Shown piece by piece: positions 16,531-27,614 of a stretch of 35,968 nt of DNA; the stretch's first letter is position 1; every line of letters begins with the position of its first letter. Both the position numbers and the translations under genes were made by a program. Below the pieces are notes generated by a model. It ran no database searches. It was not told the DNA's origin and saw nothing but the letters and a program-made list of their open reading frames with translations. Source of the DNA: Methylohalomonas lacus (GTDB taxonomy: Bacteria > Pseudomonadota > Gammaproteobacteria > Methylohalomonadales > Methylohalomonadaceae); NCBI RefSeq assembly GCF_024808875.1, contig NZ_JANUCT010000024.1, forward strand, positions 1 to 35,968, written 5' to 3'.

Positions 16531-18630
16531 TTAATCTGGGGCACGCACCCAGAAGATGTACTGCGCGGCGAAGCTGTCCGGATGCGCCTGTTCGTAGGCC
16601 TGCCAGTATTGCAGGTTGATGGCATTCGGGTCATCCGGGTACTGCTGGCGATAATGCTGCAGGGTGGCGTAATCGTCGAACTCGAAGCCCAGGAACTCCA
16701 GCGCGAGTTCGTCAATAATTTCTGCAATGGCGCTGAGATCGAGCTGGTGTTCCTGCACATGGAACATGAGGTCGCGGCATTCCGAGACGCTGTAGAAGTC
16801 GGGCGAATGCAGCAGACCGCGCAGCGGATCGCCAGCGTCCAGCGCGGCGATATATTCGCGTACCCGGCGAATGCCGACAATATCCGCGTCGATGTTCTGT
16901 GCGGCGATGCGTTCGCGAATGGCGCGTATCGGCCCGCGCGCGGCGTGACTATACAGGCCGATGCGCATCACGCCGCCGGGGTTCAGCCGCCGGCGTAACG
17001 CCTGCCAGCCGGCTTGCGGATCGGCCAGATGATGCAGCACGCCGTAGCATTCGATGGCATCGAACGGACCGACGCTGTCGTCGAGCCGGACAATGTCCGC
17101 CTGGGCAAAATCAATGTCGTCGTGGCCGTGCGCGGCCGCCTGGCGCATACCGTAGGCGAGGCTGGTGCGGCTCATGTCGATCGCGGTGATCTGTGCATCC
17201 GGGATGCGCCGGGCCATGCGCAATGCCTGCAGGCCGGTGCCGCAGCCGGCGCAGAGGATTGCCGGTGCCGGGTCAAAGCCCGGTGGCCGTGCACGCAGGT
17301 GCGGGAACAGCAGGCAGAGGTAATTGCCCAGGCTGTAGCCGTCCGGTTGATCCAACATGCGCCAGCGCGGATACGGGTTGGCCTCGTATTGGGCGCGCAC
17401 GTCGGTCGAAGTGCCGTCATCGATCGTGGTCAGGGCCGGTAATTGTGATCGGTATTCATCTTCCTGCGCCGGTTCAACAACCTGTTGTTGCCAGACACAT
17501 GCCAGTGATGGGTCGCCGGTTGCCGCTTGTGGCGGCATTGCGTCGTCGATCGACAATCGCTGCGACAGCGGTCGGTAGCAGGCGTACAGACACAGCTCGA
17601 TCGCAGGCGTTTCGGCAATGGGCCTGCCGGCCAGCGCCTCGAGCCGGCTCTGTTCCGCAGCGCTGACTGGCCACAGGTACTCGTTCAGAAAACACTGTTC
17701 GGCCAGCGCCGCGACCAGTGGCAGATATTTTTCATCCAACAGCTCCGGTGTCAGCAGCAGTTGCTGCCGCACCCGGGTCAGTAATTGTTCCAGCGACCAG
17801 TCGCACAGCGGCTCGCGCTGCAGAAGGTTGAGCAGCAACGGCTGTTGCAGCCGATCCAGCAATGCTTCGTCGACGCTCAGCTGGTCACGCTGCAACAGGT
17901 CTAGCGCATCATAAAAGATCTGCGTGGCCAGGTACCGGCAGGCCATGCGGTTCAGCGTCCGGCCGTCGATGCGTTGCAGTTGCAGGCAGTCGAGCAGATC
18001 GGCGGCCGGCAGTTCGGCGTAGCTGGCCGGCGGCAGGTGCACCAGGCAGTCCGCCAGGTCCGAATGGATCTGCCAGGATTCCGGCTGCAGTTGGCGCGCG
18101 CGGCGCAGCGGTTCCAGCGCCGCCACGGCATCGTTCTGCTGCAGCAGCAGTCGGCCGAGATTGTGCCAGGCGCCGGCAAACGCCGGCCGGGCGTCGATGG
18201 CGCGGCGATAGGCGGCGGCGGCCTGCCCGGGATCACCGCGCTCGAGCCAGGCGTTGCCCATGTTGTTATGCAGTTCGGGGACGTCAGAGCGCAGCTTCAG
18301 CGCCTTGTCATAGCAGGCCAGTGCGTCGTCGAGGCGTGCGTGACGCTTGTACAGCATGCCGAGGTTGAGCAGCGCCTCGAATACTTCGGGCTGCTGGCGC
18401 AGGCAGGCCTGGTAGGTTCGCATGGCCTCCTGGTTTTGCCCCTGTTGCTGCTGGATGCGGGCGAGCAGCAGGTAGGCGCGCTGATCGGCAGGATTGATCT
18501 TGATCGCCTTGCGCAGGTGTTTGCTGGCGCTGGCGAGCCCGCCGCGCTGCTGTTGTTCCTGTGCGCGACTCAGCAGACGGCCGACTTCCACCGCCGCATT
18601 GCGCTTGCTGGTCTGGCCGGCTGCTTTCAT
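16531..18630 (-). CDS. TPR-methyltransferase fusion protein
   Basis: A 699-residue protein. The N-terminal third (about 17-215) is a run of TPR units. A middle helical region (about 215-420) has no recognised domain. The C-terminal part (about 440-600) is a class I SAM-dependent methyltransferase with motif I ILCAGCGTG (458-466), the acidic AIDMS of strand 2, QADI, and GVLHHLADP, followed by LNPGGVMRIGLYS. The C-terminal 100 residues extend beyond the usual fold. Such TPR-methyltransferases recur in proteobacteria, but their substrate is not established; a protein substrate held by the TPRs is plausible. The start overlaps the upstream methyltransferase gene by 4 bp. Confidence 0.8.
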   Translation of the reverse strand: MKAAGQTSKRNAAVEVGRLLSRAQEQQQRGGLASASKHLRKAIKINPADQRAYLLLARIQQQQGQNQEAMRTYQACLRQQPEVFEALLNLGMLYKRHARLDDALACYDKALKLRSDVPELHNNMGNAWLERGDPGQAAAAYRRAIDARPAFAGAWHNLGRLLLQQNDAVAALEPLRRARQLQPESWQIHSDLADCLVHLPPASYAELPAADLLDCLQLQRIDGRTLNRMACRYLATQIFYDALDLLQRDQLSVDEALLDRLQQPLLLNLLQREPLCDWSLEQLLTRVRQQLLLTPELLDEKYLPLVAALAEQCFLNEYLWPVSAAEQSRLEALAGRPIAETPAIELCLYACYRPLSQRLSIDDAMPPQAATGDPSLACVWQQQVVEPAQEDEYRSQLPALTTIDDGTSTDVRAQYEANPYPRWRMLDQPDGYSLGNYLCLLFPHLRARPPGFDPAPAILCAGCGTGLQALRMARRIPDAQITAIDMSRTSLAYGMRQAAAHGHDDIDFAQADIVRLDDSVGPFDAIECYGVLHHLADPQAGWQALRRRLNPGGVMRIGLYSHAARGPIRAIRERIAAQNIDADIVGIRRVREYIAALDAGDPLRGLLHSPDFYSVSECRDLMFHVQEHQLDLSAIAEIIDELALEFLGFEFDDYATLQHYRQQYPDDPNAINLQYWQAYEQAHPDSFAAQYIFWVRAPD

Positions 18631-19211
18631 GGCCGGCGCCAGCCGATGTATTGCACGCGATCGCGAAAGCCGTGGCTGCTATCACCTAGGCGGCCGGCCT
18701 CGTGGTAATGCACGACCTGCAGCTGCGGCAACAGCTGCAGCAGTTCGTTGTCCGCCAGGCGATAGGCCGGGTTGTTGGGGCCGGCGTCACTGACTGCGGT
18801 GCAGCTGAAGGTCTGGTAGAACAGCAGCCCCGCCGGTCGCAGCGCCCCGGCGAGCGCCGGCATGATCGTGCGATCGAGGAAATGGCTGACGACGATGACA
18901 TCGAAGCTGTCCGCGGCCGGCGGCGACTCGACAATGTTCCGGCACTGACAATCGATAGCCAGCTGTTCTGCCGCGGCAAGTTGTTCCAGATCCTGCAATG
19001 CCGTCGCGGCGTAGTCCCAGGCCTGGGTCTGTAAACCGTGGGCCGCCAGCAGCAGGGCATTGCCGCCGCGGCCGCAGGCGAGGTCGACTGCGGCGCCCGA
19101 GGCCGGCAGCAGATGCACGTGATCTGCCAGCACCGCTGCGGCCTGCGGTCGTTGCATGGTCTGGCTTTCCCGGTAGCGACGCTCCCAGCGATCGGTGCCG
19201 TTAACAGTCAT
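18627..19211 (-). CDS. class I SAM-dependent methyltransferase (TehB-like)
   Basis: A 194-residue methyltransferase. Motif I is VDLACGRGGN (from residue 42), followed by an acidic strand-2 region (WDYA) and FDVIVVSHFLDR, with RPAGLLFYQTF as the strand 5 region. The N-terminal WERRYRES is typical of the small TehB/UbiE-like group. The substrate cannot be inferred. The gene begins 9 bp after trkH and overlaps the TPR-methyltransferase gene by 4 bp, so two methyltransferases are translationally coupled. Confidence 0.82.
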   Translation of the reverse strand: MTVNGTDRWERRYRESQTMQRPQAAAVLADHVHLLPASGAAVDLACGRGGNALLLAAHGLQTQAWDYAATALQDLEQLAAAEQLAIDCQCRNIVESPPAADSFDVIVVSHFLDRTIMPALAGALRPAGLLFYQTFSCTAVSDAGPNNPAYRLADNELLQLLPQLQVVHYHEAGRLGDSSHGFRDRVQYIGWRRP

Positions 19212-19220
19212 GGCAACGAC

Positions 19221-20672
19221 TCATTTCTTCCAGAATGCCGGCGTCAGGATGACCAGCAGGGTGAAGATTTCCAGACGGCCGAGCAGCATGGCGACGACGA
19301 GTACCCACTTGGCGGTGTCGTTGATCGGGCCGTAATGTGCACTGACATCGCCGAGGCCCGGGCCGAGATTGTTCAGGCACGCCGCCATCGCCGAGAACGC
19401 CGTGATCTGATCCAGGCCGGTGGCCAGCAGCAGCAGCATCAACAGGGTGAAGACGGCAACATAGGCGGCGAAGAAGCCCCAGACCGCGTTGACCACCCGG
19501 TCGGGCAGACTGCGGCCGCCGAGCTTGATCGAGAATATGGCGTTGGGATGAATGAGCCGGCGTACCTCGCGCAAGCCCTGCTTGACCAGCAACAAAACGC
19601 GGATCACCTTGAGGCCGCCGCCGGTGGAAGTGGCGCAGCCGCCGACAAAACTGGCGAACAGCAGCAGCACCGGCAGGAAGGTCGGCCAGTTCTGGTAGCT
19701 GGCGGTGGTAAAGCCGGAAGTGGTGGCGATCGAAACACTCTGGAACAGACCGTCGCGCAGTGAGTCAGCGGCAGCTACCTCGGGACGTATGTAAAGCAGA
19801 TAAACGATCGTGACCAGGCTGAGTGCGAACAGGAACGTGACATAGGCCCGCACCTCTGAATCGTGCAGGTAGGGCCGCAGGCTGAACGAACGCCAGGCGA
19901 GAAAATGCAGGGTAAAATTCATCCCGCCCAGCAACATGAAAAAGACCGCGACGAGTTCGATGGCGGTGCTGTCGAAGTAACCGATGCTGGCATCATGGGT
20001 GGAAAAGCCACCGATCGAGACGGTCGAGAAACTGTGGGCGATGGCGTCGAATGGTGTCATGCCGGCGACCCAGTAGCTCAGGGCGCAGAGGATGGTCATG
20101 CCGAGGTAGACATACCACAGTGCCTTGGCGGTTTCGGTGATGCGCGGCGTGAGCTTGGCATCCTTGAGCGGACCGGGAATTTCTGCCTTGTAGAGCTGCA
20201 TGCCACCGATGCCGAGCATCGGCAGGATGGCGACGGCCAGCACGATGATGCCCATGCCGCCCATCCATTGCAGCTGCTGGCGATAGAACAGAACTGACAG
20301 CGGCAGGCTGTCGATGCCGGTCAGTACGGTGGCGCCGGTGGTGGTCAGGCCGGACATCGACTCGAACACCGCGTCGGTAATGCTGAGCCGCGGAAACTCG
20401 CTCAATAATAGCGGTATGGCTCCGGACAGGCCGAGGCTGACCCAGAACAGCACGACGACGATGAAGCCGTCGCGCAGCTTCAGTTCGGTGCGAATGTTGC
20501 GCACCGGTAACCACATGATCAGGCCGGCCGTCAGAATCAGTCCCCAGGCCAGCAGGAAGGCGAAAGCGGCACCATCCCGGGCAAACCAGGAGATGGCCAA
20601 TGGTGGCAGCAGCGTCAGGCTGAACAGCGCCAGCAGCAGACCAAGAATGCGTTGGATGGCGGTTAATTGCAT
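19221..20672 (-). CDS. trkH: potassium uptake protein TrkH/TrkG
   Basis: A 483-residue polytopic inner-membrane potassium channel subunit of the Trk system. Four pore-loop segments of the TrkH family are visible: GLTTTGATV, STVSIGGFST, SIATTSGFTT and ACLNNLGPGLG. GGCATSTGGGLKV precedes the cytoplasmic loop before the last repeat. Length matches Escherichia coli TrkH. It lies 14 bp after trkA, its regulatory partner, in the same direction; transport is expected to be gated by nucleotide binding to TrkA. Confidence 0.95.
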   Translation of the reverse strand: MQLTAIQRILGLLLALFSLTLLPPLAISWFARDGAAFAFLLAWGLILTAGLIMWLPVRNIRTELKLRDGFIVVVLFWVSLGLSGAIPLLLSEFPRLSITDAVFESMSGLTTTGATVLTGIDSLPLSVLFYRQQLQWMGGMGIIVLAVAILPMLGIGGMQLYKAEIPGPLKDAKLTPRITETAKALWYVYLGMTILCALSYWVAGMTPFDAIAHSFSTVSIGGFSTHDASIGYFDSTAIELVAVFFMLLGGMNFTLHFLAWRSFSLRPYLHDSEVRAYVTFLFALSLVTIVYLLYIRPEVAAADSLRDGLFQSVSIATTSGFTTASYQNWPTFLPVLLLFASFVGGCATSTGGGLKVIRVLLLVKQGLREVRRLIHPNAIFSIKLGGRSLPDRVVNAVWGFFAAYVAVFTLLMLLLLATGLDQITAFSAMAACLNNLGPGLGDVSAHYGPINDTAKWVLVVAMLLGRLEIFTLLVILTPAFWKK

Positions 20673-20686
20673 GCTGGCTGGTGCGC

Positions 20687-22060
20687 CTACAGAAAAGTAA
20701 TGCCGACCTGGAACAGGTGTTCGACCTCGGGAACCCGCGACTTGTTGGCGACCAGCATGATGATATGGTCGTCGGCTTCGATCACGGTGTCATGATGCGC
20801 GATCATGACCTCATCGCCGCGCACGATCGCGCCGATGCTGGTTTCCGGCGGCAGCTTGATCTTGCCGAGCGGACGCCCGACCACCTTGGATGAATTGACG
20901 TCGCCGTGCGCGATCGCCTCGATCGCCTCGGCCGCACCGCGGCGCAATGAATGCACGACGACGACGTCGCCCTTGCGGATATGCGCCAGAAGACTGCCGA
21001 TCGTGGCCTGCTGTGGCGAAATGGCGATGTCGATGACGTTGCTCTGTACCAGGTCGACGTAGGCGGCGCGGTTGATCAACGACATGACCTTGCGCGCGCC
21101 CAGGCGCTTTGCCAGCATCGAGGAAATGATGTTGGCCTCGTCATCGTTGGTGACGGCACAGAAGACGTCCGTCTGGTCTATGTTCTCGTCGGTCAGCAAT
21201 TCCTCGTCGGCGGCATCGCCGAGCAGTACCACCGTGCGTTCCAGGCTTTCGGCGGCCTGTTCGGCACGCAGCGGGTCCGACTCCAGCATCTTGATGTCGT
21301 ATTTCTTCTCCAGCGCGCGTGCCAGGCGTCGGCCGATGTTGCCGCCGCCGGCCAGCATGATGCGCTTGACGGCCCGCTCCTTCTCGCGAATGAAGCCCAT
21401 CAGCGAACGGATGTGTTTCGTCGCGCCGATGAAGAAGACTTCGTCGTCGGGTTCGATACTGGTATCGCCTTCCGGAATTAGCGGTTTGCCGCTGCGGAAA
21501 ATGACGACAACGCGGAAATCGATATCTTTCAGGTTCGCACGCAATTCACGCAGCGTGTGTCCGACCAGCGGGCCGTTGTAGTAGGCCTTGACGGCGATCA
21601 TCTGTACCTTGCCCTCGGCGAATTCCAGTACTTGCAGGGCGCCTGGGAAGGCGATGAGCCGGGCAATGTAATCGGTAACCAGCTGTTCCGGGCTGATCAG
21701 TACGTCGATGGGTAACGCTTCCTGGGCGAACAGCGCCGACTGCGACAGGTACTCGCCCTCGCGCACCCGCGCGATTTTGGTCGGTGTGTGAAACAGTGTG
21801 TAGGCGATCTGGCAGGCGAGCATGTTGATTTCGTCGCTGTTGGTTACGGCGATCACCATGTCCGCATCGCGGGCGCCGGCACGCTGCAACACCGAAGGAT
21901 ATGATGCTACGCCGGTGACCGTCTGCAGATCATAGCGTTCATTGAGCATGGTCAGGCGTTGCTGATCAATATCCACCACGGTGATGTCATTGGCTTCACT
22001 GGCCAGGTTGGCCGCCAGTGACGAACCGACCTGACCGGCGCCGAGGATGATGATTTTCAT
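20687..22060 (-). CDS. trkA: Trk system potassium regulatory protein TrkA
   Basis: A 457-residue peripheral cytoplasmic protein with two tandem RCK (TrkA-N plus TrkA-C) units. The first nucleotide-binding motif is GAGQVG at residues 7-12, and the second is AGGGNIGRRLA near residue 237. It binds NAD(H)/ATP-type ligands and gates TrkH. Length and architecture equal the family norm. It lies between ntrX and trkH; a gap of about 70 bp separates it from ntrX, with no clear terminator. Confidence 0.96.
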   Translation of the reverse strand: MKIIILGAGQVGSSLAANLASEANDITVVDIDQQRLTMLNERYDLQTVTGVASYPSVLQRAGARDADMVIAVTNSDEINMLACQIAYTLFHTPTKIARVREGEYLSQSALFAQEALPIDVLISPEQLVTDYIARLIAFPGALQVLEFAEGKVQMIAVKAYYNGPLVGHTLRELRANLKDIDFRVVVIFRSGKPLIPEGDTSIEPDDEVFFIGATKHIRSLMGFIREKERAVKRIMLAGGGNIGRRLARALEKKYDIKMLESDPLRAEQAAESLERTVVLLGDAADEELLTDENIDQTDVFCAVTNDDEANIISSMLAKRLGARKVMSLINRAAYVDLVQSNVIDIAISPQQATIGSLLAHIRKGDVVVVHSLRRGAAEAIEAIAHGDVNSSKVVGRPLGKIKLPPETSIGAIVRGDEVMIAHHDTVIEADDHIIMLVANKSRVPEVEHLFQVGITFL

Positions 22061-22132: not shown

Positions 22133-23503
22133 TCACTTGTCGCTGCCATCGGCTTTCAGTTCAATACCCAGTGAACGCATCTTGCGATAGAGATGCGTAC
22201 GCTCCATGCCGACGTTTCTCGCCACCTTGCTGACGCTGCCGTCGGCCTGCTTGAGCTGATACTCGAGGTAGGCCTTTTCGAATTGTTCGCGCGCTTCGCG
22301 CAGCGGCAGATCAAACCCCGGCAGATTGTTGTATTCGGCCGGCTGTTTCTGGCGCTTGCCGAGCACACTTTCGACTTCCTCGGTTTCAATGATTTCGTCA
22401 CGGCCGAGGATCAAGAGCCGTTGCACCAGGTTTTTCAGTTCGCGCAGGTTGCCCGGCCAATGGTAACTGCGCAGCCGGTTCTGGGCGGCGACGCTGAAAC
22501 GCCGATAGGTCAGGCCTTCACGTTCGGCAAAGTAGGCGACATAGTGTTCGAGCAGATCGGGAATATCCTCGTAGTGATCGCGCAATGCCGGCAATGGAAT
22601 GGGCACCACGCTTAACTGGTAGTACAGATCATCACGGAAATTGCCGTTGTGAACGAACTGTTCGAGGTTGTGCTTGGTTGCAGCCACCACACGGACGTTG
22701 CTGCTGATGGGTTCGACGCCGCCGACGCGCACGAACTGGCCACTGTCGAGCAAGTCCTGGAGTTTGCCCTGTACCGGCAGCGACATGTCGGCAATGTCCT
22801 TGAGGAACAGTGTGCCACCCTCGGCCTTTTCCAGCAGGCCGGTCTGTATGCGGCCGTCATCCTCCTCGCTGCCGAACAACTCGGCCGCCGAGTTTTCGGC
22901 GGACAGGCTCGAGACGCCGACGCTGATGAACGGGCTATTGGCGCGGTCGCTCATATTGTGCAGGTAGCGGGCGAATATTTCCTTGTCGGTACCGGATTCG
23001 CCGATGATCAGTACCGGCGTATTGTGATGCGCGACGCGCTGCAGCTGGTCACGCAACGCCTGCATCTGCTGGCTCTTGCCAATGGGTTCGTCGCTGGCCT
23101 GGCTGTAGTGGCGCAGGCGGGTGTTTTCCTGCTGCAGGGAGACGCGTTCGAGGGCGTGCTTGATGGTCAGCAGCAGCTTGGCCAGCGATAGCGGTTTTTC
23201 AATGAAATCGTAAGCCCCGAGGCGAGTGGCTTCGACCGCGGTCTCGACGCTGCCGTGGCCGGACATCATGACGACCGGGAATATCTCGTTGTGTTCGGCC
23301 TTCCATTCCTTCAGCAGGGTAATGCCGTCCTCGTCCGGCATCCAGATATCCAGCAGGACCAGATCCGGCTGGTGTTGATTGATCTGGTCGCGGGCGCGGT
23401 CGGCACTTTCGGCCACCTCGACATCGAAGCCCTCGTCCACGAGGATCTCCTGAACCAGTTCGCGAATATCCGGTTCGTCGTCGACAACGAGAATCTTGCT
23501 CAT
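22133..23503 (-). CDS. ntrX: NtrX response regulator with a degenerate AAA+ domain
   Basis: A 456-residue response regulator, partner of NtrY. The receiver domain is intact (Asp8, Asp9, phospho-acceptor Asp52 in LLDIWMPDEDG). The C-terminal Fis-type helix-turn-helix is intact (SVSKVARNVGMERTHLYRK). The central sigma54-type AAA+ domain is not. Walker A reads GESGTDKE (168-175) with Asp173 for the invariant Gly. Walker B reads TLFLKDIAD with Lys235-Asp236 for Asp-Glu. The GAFTGA loop is replaced by SEEDDGRIQTG, and the arginine-finger segment reads DLYYQL for DLYYRL. It should bind DNA under phosphorylation control but probably neither hydrolyses ATP nor activates sigma54. The frame is intact throughout, so it is not a pseudogene. 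Confidence 0.9.
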   Translation of the reverse strand: MSKILVVDDEPDIRELVQEILVDEGFDVEVAESADRARDQINQHQPDLVLLDIWMPDEDGITLLKEWKAEHNEIFPVVMMSGHGSVETAVEATRLGAYDFIEKPLSLAKLLLTIKHALERVSLQQENTRLRHYSQASDEPIGKSQQMQALRDQLQRVAHHNTPVLIIGESGTDKEIFARYLHNMSDRANSPFISVGVSSLSAENSAAELFGSEEDDGRIQTGLLEKAEGGTLFLKDIADMSLPVQGKLQDLLDSGQFVRVGGVEPISSNVRVVAATKHNLEQFVHNGNFRDDLYYQLSVVPIPLPALRDHYEDIPDLLEHYVAYFAEREGLTYRRFSVAAQNRLRSYHWPGNLRELKNLVQRLLILGRDEIIETEEVESVLGKRQKQPAEYNNLPGFDLPLREAREQFEKAYLEYQLKQADGSVSKVARNVGMERTHLYRKMRSLGIELKADGSDK

Positions 23504-25753: not shown

Positions 25754-26335
25754 TCATGGATGAATCCGCCATTCGTGCCAGCCGCTGTTTAGTCGCCAGC
25801 TGGCGGAAATGTGTGCGGCCGGGCGCATCGGCGCCGGCAGGCTCTCGATATCCAGCCAGGCACGGATACGACCGCGGTAGTTCCCTTCGGCTTCCAGCTC
25901 GGTGCTGTCCAGCAACGGGTAATCGCTCATGGTTCCAATGAACTCCAGTGCTTCCTGGAGGGACAGGAAACTGCGCCGGCGGTACTTGTGCGTGACCAGG
26001 TAGTTCTTGCTCAGCGCCTGGCGCTCGAGGCGGAAATTCTCGCTGTGTTCGACCAGCGTGCGGTCCCAAAGCCAGAAGCGTTCCTTCAGTACCTCCAGTT
26101 CGACGACGATATTCAGGGCGACGCCATTATCCAGTGCCTTCAGCGCCTCTTCGCTGAGCTCAAAGTCGAGTTGCGCGCTGGCGGTGAGCTGGCCCGCCAC
26201 CAGGTTGCTGCCGGCCTCGCGGACCTTGATGCTCGCCGCCCGCGCGTCGGTGCCGGGCGCCAGCAACGACAGCACGAGCAGAGCCGCGATCGCAGCCAGC
26301 AGTGAGCGGAATCTAACGCTTGCCGAGGCGGGCAT
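25754..26335 (-). CDS. exported DUF4390 protein
   Basis: A 193-residue protein with a signal peptide (MPASASVRFRSLL through to a site near ARA-AS) and a mature beta-rich domain of unknown function. Segments such as LWDRTLVEHSENFRLERQAL and GTMSDYPLLD match the DUF4390 family, which sits between rsmB and ntrY in many gammaproteobacteria. The start at 26335 is chosen because it begins the signal peptide; a longer in-frame start at 26500 would lie inside rsmB. It still overlaps the end of rsmB by 23 bp. An envelope role connected with NtrY sensing is suggested by the conserved context only. Confidence 0.8.
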   Translation of the reverse strand: MPASASVRFRSLLAAIAALLVLSLLAPGTDARAASIKVREAGSNLVAGQLTASAQLDFELSEEALKALDNGVALNIVVELEVLKERFWLWDRTLVEHSENFRLERQALSKNYLVTHKYRRRSFLSLQEALEFIGTMSDYPLLDSTELEAEGNYRGRIRAWLDIESLPAPMRPAAHISASWRLNSGWHEWRIHP

Positions 26336-27614
26336 AGAAAAAACCGTCCATCTCCTTGTCGCCGGGCAGAATCTGGCGCCCGTGCAGCTGTTGCCGTCCC
26401 CAGGGCGCGGCGATGGGTTGTTCACTGGCGTCGTCGTGTTGTGCCAGAAAGCCGGCGATTTGTTCGCTGTTTTCCGCCGGCAGCACAGAACAGGTGGCAT
26501 ACAACAGCTTACCGCCCGGTGCCAGGAGCGGCCAGAGGGCGGTCAGCAGTTGTGTCTGCATTGCCACCGCCGCATCGATCGCTGCGCGATCGCGATGATA
26601 CTTGATATCCGGGTGACGGCGAATTACGCCGCTGCCGCTGCACGGGGCGTCGAGCAGGATACGATCGAATGCATTGCCGTCCCACCAGTCCCGCGGGCGG
26701 GCGGCGTCGGCGGCGATGCAGGTCGCGCTCAGTTGCAGGCGTTCGAGTCCGGACTGCAGCCGCGCCAGCCGATCGGCGCTGCGGTCGATGGCAACCACCT
26801 CGGCCAGGCCGGGTTCCTGCTCAAGCATGTGGGCGGTCTTGCCGCCGGGGGCGGCGCAGGCGTCGAGCACCCGTTGACCGGGCTCGAGGTCCAGCAGCCC
26901 GGCGGCCAGCTGGGCGGCCGGATCCTGCACCGAGACCAGGCCGTCGGCGAACCCCGGCAGGCGGCCGGCAGCCACCGCCGGTTCCACCCGCAGGGCATAG
27001 TCTGCGTCGGCATGGGGCGTGCCTGTCAGGCCGGCGGCGGTCAGCAGCTGGTGGTATTGCTCGCAGTCGCTGCGGCGCCGGTTGACGCGGATATAAAACG
27101 GCGGTCGCTGGTTGTTGGCCGCCGCGATCGTCTGCCAGTCTTCCGGCCAGGCCTTCTGCAGGGTCTTCAGCAGCCATTTCGGATGTGCCAGTGCCGCGGC
27201 CGGCTGTGCCGCCGCCTGTTGCTGGAGCTGCACGCGTTCACGCGTGGCACGCCGCAGTACCGCATTGACCAGTGTCGCCGCCCAGGGTTTGTCGAGTTCG
27301 CTACATGCATCGACGCCGGTGGCCACCGCGGCGTGATCGGGCGTGTCGAGATCGAGAATCTGGTAAAGACCGACCAGCAGCAGCAGGCCGATATCGCTGT
27401 CGGCTGTTTTCAGCGGCCGGTCGAGCAGCTGGCTGAGCTGGAAGCGTAACCGCGGCAGCCAGCGCAGCACGCCGTAGCAGAGTTCCTGCACGAAGGCCTG
27501 GTCGCGCTCTGGCAGCGCCACGCGCGCATTCGCGTTGCTGATTGCCCGTTCCAGCGGCACGTCGGTGTCGATAACCTCCGCCAGGATGCGGACGGCCAGG
27601 CTGCGGCTGTGCAT
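26313..27614 (-). CDS. rsmB: 16S rRNA (cytosine-967 C5)-methyltransferase RsmB
   Basis: A 433-residue Sun/Fmu enzyme that methylates C967 of 16S rRNA. It has an N-terminal NusB-like helical domain (about 1-140) and a C-terminal Rossmann methyltransferase domain. SAM binding is by DACAAPGGKTAHML. The two family cysteines are present: Cys325 in LLDAPCSGSG and Cys375 in ATCSVLPAENS, the latter corresponding to the nucleophile. Length matches the family. It follows fmt by 4 bp in the usual def-fmt-rsmB order. Confidence 0.96.
   Translation of the reverse strand: MHSRSLAVRILAEVIDTDVPLERAISNANARVALPERDQAFVQELCYGVLRWLPRLRFQLSQLLDRPLKTADSDIGLLLLVGLYQILDLDTPDHAAVATGVDACSELDKPWAATLVNAVLRRATRERVQLQQQAAAQPAAALAHPKWLLKTLQKAWPEDWQTIAAANNQRPPFYIRVNRRRSDCEQYHQLLTAAGLTGTPHADADYALRVEPAVAAGRLPGFADGLVSVQDPAAQLAAGLLDLEPGQRVLDACAAPGGKTAHMLEQEPGLAEVVAIDRSADRLARLQSGLERLQLSATCIAADAARPRDWWDGNAFDRILLDAPCSGSGVIRRHPDIKYHRDRAAIDAAVAMQTQLLTALWPLLAPGGKLLYATCSVLPAENSEQIAGFLAQHDDASEQPIAAPWGRQQLHGRQILPGDKEMDGFFYARLGKR

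Follow-up and report, generated by a model that had tools for sequence, protein, structure and literature searches.

NtrX of Methylohalomonas lacus is probably a phosphorylation-switched, sigma54-independent DNA-binding regulator that keeps its AAA+ fold without ATP hydrolysis

NtrX is already known not to be a classical sigma54 activator, and both alphaproteobacterial NtrX proteins without GAFTGA and betaproteobacterial NtrX proteins without the AAA+ domain have been published. Brucella abortus NtrX is reported to bind ATP, to lack ATPase activity, not to oligomerise and to repress its own promoter. Sinorhizobium NtrX regulates cell-cycle genes via D53 phosphorylation and binds CAAN2-5TTG (PMC9223101). 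For beta- and gammaproteobacteria an rsmB-plrP-ntrYX cluster has been described, with PlrP as a proposed third component (PMC13001219). Bordetella PlrR, an NtrX-family protein described as consisting of a receiver and a DNA-binding domain, requires D52 phosphorylation (PMC13001219), and the absence of the AAA+ domain from betaproteobacterial NtrX is stated in the same paper, citing Atack 2013. According to papers citing Atack 2013, Neisseria gonorrhoeae NtrX controls respiratory genes, for example aniA and norB. Here, we analyze the ntrX gene in a 35,968-nucleotide stretch of the Methylohalomonas lacus genome (contig NZ_JANUCT010000024.1, hereafter the window) and conclude, with a probability of roughly 80%, that its product is a phosphorylation-switched DNA-binding regulator that needs neither sigma54 nor ATP hydrolysis and uses its AAA+ fold as a scaffold. 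What appears to be new is a fixed K-D Walker B, an added G173D in the P-loop and a selective, class-wide loss of hydrolysis residues, all three undescribed in the literature searched, which covered subscription journals only in part.

The gene and the domains of its product are laid out as follows.
22133..23503, minus strand: ntrX, response regulator with receiver, AAA+ and Fis HTH, 456 aa
23162..23494, minus strand: receiver domain, residues 4-114 (Pfam)
23348-23350, minus strand: codon of the phospho-acceptor Asp52 in the receiver
22340..23083, minus strand: AAA+ core and lid, about residues 141-388, fold retained (Pfam, predicted structure)
22163..22291, minus strand: C-terminal Fis-type DNA-binding region, residues 405-447 (Pfam)

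Receiver, Sigma54_activat, AAA+ lid and Fis HTH each score over the Pfam cut-off, the AAA+ fold (PF00158) with 157 bits. Together with the 456-aa reading frame this bears out the initial annotation, which had described an open frame with receiver Asp52 and Fis-type HTH intact. Among 113 NCBIfam matches, NF051870 (NtrX) ranks first, at 487 bits against a curated cut-off of 600; the protein is under the NtrX cut-off yet over that of Sigma54_activat. With Sigma54_activat passing and the NtrX model not, annotation pipelines would probably name the protein as sigma-54-dependent, a label that is likely wrong.

Around ntrX the gene order is rsmB-plrP(DUF4390)-ntrY-ntrX-trkA-trkH.
26313..27614, minus strand: rsmB, conserved upstream neighbour
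25754..26500, minus strand: plrP homolog (DUF4390, PF14334), proposed third component of NtrYX systems (PMC13001219)
23500..25716, minus strand: ntrY, sensor kinase, with NtrY_N (PF19312), HAMP, PAS, HisKA and HATPase over cut-off
20687..22060, minus strand: trkA, downstream neighbour
19221..20672, minus strand: trkH, downstream neighbour

With rsmB and the DUF4390 gene directly upstream of ntrYX, the locus fits the beta/gammaproteobacterial cluster. NtrY keeps an intact phospho-acceptor box (HEIKN, H504), and the ntrY stop codon and the ntrX start share 4 nt (ATGA). CAAN5TTG, one of the CAAN2-5TTG set, and GCAN9TGC, both motifs of alphaproteobacterial NtrX, occur in the window at chance frequency. 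Further along, positions 16531-18630 encode a 699-aa protein with TPR repeats (about residues 23-248) and a SAM methyltransferase domain (about 458-557), adjoined at 18627-19211 by a second, small TehB/UbiG-like methyltransferase gene.

The residues of the AAA+ motor that are altered or retained map to these positions.
22979..23002, minus strand: Walker A GESGTDKE, residues 168-175, with the G173D codon at 22985-22987
22838..22882, minus strand: loop 1 region ELFGSEEDDGRIQTG, without GAFTGA
22793..22813, minus strand: Walker B TLFLKDI, residues 231-237, K235-D236 replacing D-E
22634-22636, minus strand: first arginine finger R290, kept
22616..22618, minus strand: Gln296, replacing the second arginine finger (PspF R168 position)

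Against the canonical features of a sigma54 activator, the window NtrX lacks GAFTGA in loop 1, a GxxxxGK Walker A (G173D), an hhhhDE Walker B (K235-D236) and two arginine fingers (Q296). In loop 1, ELFGSEEDDGRIQTG occupies the place of the expected ELFG-x-GAFTGA, and Q296 lies in YYQL, residues 294-297. We take PspF R162 and R168 to be the two arginine fingers and align R290 and Q296 to them; residue 196, at the position of the PspF switch Asn64, is Gly, one more loss that had escaped the initial annotation. Re-reading residues 168-175 and 231-237 from the open reading frame confirms Asp173 and Lys235-Asp236 as first reported, as it does the missing GAFTGA and the YYQL. The accompanying statement that every ATPase and sigma54-contact signature had been lost holds for Walker B, GAFTGA, G173 and the second finger but is overstated, given that G168, G171, K174 and E175 of Walker A, R290 (FRDDL), the sensor-I T276 and the sensor-II R354 are still present. 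Judged from these residues, the protein should have no ATPase activity and its nucleotide binding should be absent or altered, although residual or altered binding is possible in view of the retained K174, E175, R290, T276 and R354.

To place these states in the family we searched 370 genomes of the class, of which 236 gave a match at E <= 1e-85; none of the genomes searched held a relative from the same GTDB family. The alignment comprises 193 gammaproteobacterial NtrX rows (L-numbers label rows or loci), which were recruited by similarity to the window NtrX and hence under-sample the most eroded NtrX proteins. Receiver residues D9, E10, D52 and K103 are found in all 193 rows and the HTH is well conserved. 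In the AAA+ domain, the phosphate-binding side is kept (G168 in 192, G171 in 191, G173 in 182, K174 in 163 and the sensor-II R354 in 166 of 193 rows), whereas on the hydrolysis side D235 is found in 87, E236 in 96, the switch Asn in 21 and the second arginine finger in 36; the K-D Walker B occurs in 23. Ranked by conservation among the 235 AAA+ columns, binding residues lie at 1-66 (G168 1, G171 6, G173 31, K174 56, R354 66) and hydrolysis and finger residues at 87-203 (D235 187, R296 189, N277 197, N196 203), a difference with a one-sided rank-sum p of 0.002 for a small, hand-chosen residue set. This pattern points to class-wide selection that holds the nucleotide-binding residues and has released the hydrolysis residues. 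It is also what would be expected if the AAA+ domain were a nucleotide sensor, binding ATP or ADP without hydrolysis so that the energy state modulates dimerisation or DNA binding alongside Asp52 phosphorylation: across the class the Walker A glycines and Lys are conserved together with the sensor-I Thr and the sensor-II Arg, unlike the hydrolysis residues, and the closest solved relative, Brucella NtrX, has been crystallised with ATP and with ADP. A non-hydrolysing AAA+ domain of NtrX could indeed respond to ATP or ADP levels. For the window protein, however, we consider such a sensor doubtful, given that the Gly before the P-loop Lys is Asp throughout its clade and the Mg-binding Asp is Lys, and that D173 and K235 are both expected to hinder Mg-ATP binding. 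Among K-D rows, one subclade (L018, L162, L188 and L197) has a Walker A Lys to Arg change (GESGSGRT and similar), a second P-loop change other than G173D.

The paralogous activators of the genome are intact by the same measures. In each of ten other full bEBPs, Walker A has its G/K, Walker B its DE and both arginines are retained; loop 1 reads GAFTGA or GSFTGA in nine and GAFTSA in one. The same genome encodes rpoN. Genome-wide bEBP decay or sigma54 loss is thereby ruled out, and the loss is specific to NtrX. In the tree, the window NtrX groups among the gammaproteobacterial NtrX rows and separately from six bEBPs encoded in the same genome. The presence of rpoN and ten intact bEBPs, with the retained R290 and R354, would be compatible with a working sigma54 activator whose AAA+ site is unconventional, for instance if NtrX formed mixed rings with one of the intact bEBPs. 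We regard this as highly improbable, because GAFTGA is found in loop 1 of none of the 193 NtrX rows, neither the Mg-binding Asp nor the P-loop Gly is preserved and NtrX relatives without any AAA+ domain exist. The apparent GAFTGA of one NtrX row, L058, is at residue 382 and not in loop 1.

Trees were built with the trait columns left out. D173 and K235-D236 are shared by 7/7 rows of the window clade (bootstrap 100, SH-aLRT 97), that is, by six other genomes from two other GTDB families. These residues can therefore be put down neither to a fault in sequencing or assembly nor to a mutation private to this gene, given that the six orthologs share both states and that the frame is intact. The sister row L002 has K235-D236 with an intact Walker A (G173), hence K235 preceded D173. 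Brucella NtrX is the first branch within NtrX, next outside the gammaproteobacterial rows, and it lacks GAFTGA but has intact Walker A, Walker B and arginine finger, hence GAFTGA was lost first. By parsimony D235 changed about 25 times, or was lost about 30 times if never regained. Rather than an oddity of a single gene, the window NtrX is part of a graded, recurrent loss, in which the loss of GAFTGA is older and shared with Brucella. The K-D rows fell in two places in the first tree. In a mixture-model tree of 51 rows all 23 K-D rows lie with the non-K-D row L165 on one side of a branch that has 99/97 support for the remaining rows, so that K235-D236 is present in 23 of the 24 rows of this K-D clade, and an AU test on a subset did not reject K-D rows held together (p-AU 0.77). 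These results fit, without proving, a single origin of the K-D Walker B that was retained since, rather than random drift. A tentative further suggestion is that a putative D173-K235 salt bridge from P-loop to Walker B plugs the nucleotide pocket and replaces Mg-ATP, which would make this a nucleotide-free, phosphorylation-only NtrX, selected rather than decayed; if true, the bridge would lock the AAA+ domain in one state.

The AAA+ domain is under strong purifying selection in close ortholog pairs whose Walker B is dead. For pairs with dS < 1, AAA+ dN/dS is 0.07 for L167/L169 (K-D), 0.09 for L076/L084 (K-N), 0.09 for L010/L159 (S-E) and 0.05 for L070/L210 (E-D); it is 0.16 for L127/L128, a very close pair with few changes. 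All these figures describe relatives, since dS is saturated between the window gene and L002 and within the D173 clade. Low dN/dS in relatives after loss of Walker B indicates that the AAA+ domain functions without hydrolysis, and a relaxed, unconstrained domain is unsupported (0.05-0.16). AlphaFold2 predicts a full fold for the window NtrX with an AAA+ pLDDT of about 91-97; the top Foldseek matches to the model are Brucella NtrX entries with ATP, with ADP and with neither, and its AAA+ part matches those of FleQ and NtrC1 with Z about 31 and rmsd 1.6-2.0. Eroded end points do exist in the class. Among class genomes without a strong full-length NtrX match, the open reading frame downstream of plrP and ntrY encodes a 431-440 aa NtrX with a shrunken or strongly eroded AAA+ domain and conserved receiver and HTH in L239 (contig G239:C293), L240 (G106:C36) and L243 (G203:C79), in the last of which Walker A and B are both unrecognisable; in L235 (G202:C1) and L238 (G096:C1) the product, 234-240 aa, consists of receiver, linker and HTH only. 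Such AAA-less and near-unrecognisable forms, and AAA+ columns that are more variable than those of receiver and HTH (mean entropy 1.67 vs 1.08 and 1.21), would suit a view of the window AAA+ domain as a functionless, decaying relic on its way to domain loss. This is unlikely: the selection data weaken it, with dN/dS far below 1 in Walker-B-dead pairs, D173, K235 and D236 are fixed over deep divergence within the clade, and an intact fold is predicted with high confidence.

Taken together, the sequence evidence supports well the core of what had been proposed at the outset, a DNA binder that is controlled by phosphorylation and lacks both ATPase and sigma54 activity: Asp52, HTH and NtrY are all in place, hydrolysis residues have been lost across the class and AAA-less NtrX relatives exist. 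In the phosphorylation-switched regulator that we favor, NtrY, probably tuned by PlrP, would phosphorylate Asp52, and the phosphorylated receiver would reposition the dimer of AAA+ and HTH, allowing the Fis-type HTH to bind its target sites and to repress or activate promoters of sigma70-type polymerase; we infer both the sigma70 targets and the sign of regulation. The AAA+ fold would serve as a structural scaffold through which dimers or oligomers make contact and the receiver is coupled to the HTH. Its earlier assignment to oligomerisation only goes further than the data, which show selection on the domain in relatives and suit a dimer scaffold or coupling between domains just as well. The window NtrX would then represent one stage in the conversion of the whole NtrX family into plain DNA-binding switches. 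GAFTGA would have been lost before the split from alphaproteobacterial NtrX; constraint on Walker B, the switch Asn and the second arginine finger would next have been lifted; Lys235 would have replaced the Mg-binding Asp in one clade; and Asp173, expected to obstruct or reshape the nucleotide pocket, would have replaced the last P-loop Gly in the subclade with the window gene. Gammaproteobacterial NtrX proteins may thus be sampled intermediates between ATP-driven NtrC-like activators and AAA-less betaproteobacterial NtrX, with an order of loss readable from the tree (sigma54 loop, hydrolysis residues, P-loop, domain). For many gammaproteobacterial proteins that carry a sigma-54-dependent annotation, the prediction is that they do not activate sigma54, with consequences for automatic annotation and for sigma54 regulon predictions.

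Among known systems, Brucella abortus NtrX (PDB 5m7n, 5m7o, 5m7p) is the closest solved relative by sequence (E 5e-112) and, like the window NtrX, has a receiver-AAA+-Fis architecture without GAFTGA. It keeps Walker A as GPSGAGKE, Walker B as LYLDEV, and FREDLFHRL, in contrast to D173, K235-D236 and Q296 in the window. Caulobacter and Rhodobacter capsulatus NtrC are likewise bEBP-like proteins without GAFTGA that act at sigma70 promoters; in Caulobacter NtrC, unlike the window NtrX, Walker A and B are intact and required, and R. capsulatus NtrC needs ATP binding (PMC10274813). Vibrio cholerae VspR, a bEBP-type protein without GAFTGA, acts at sigma70 promoters without needing ATP (PMC10274813), and structures of V. 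cholerae VpsR, likewise of bEBP type, match the window NtrX model with Z about 26-28. Neither VspR nor VpsR is an NtrX ortholog, and VpsR, going by structure titles, binds c-di-GMP. Betaproteobacterial NtrX/PlrR (Bordetella PlrSR, Neisseria NtrX) has the same rsmB-plrP-ntrY-ntrX order as the window locus but, as in L235 and L238, no AAA+ domain, whereas the window NtrX retains the AAA+ fold.
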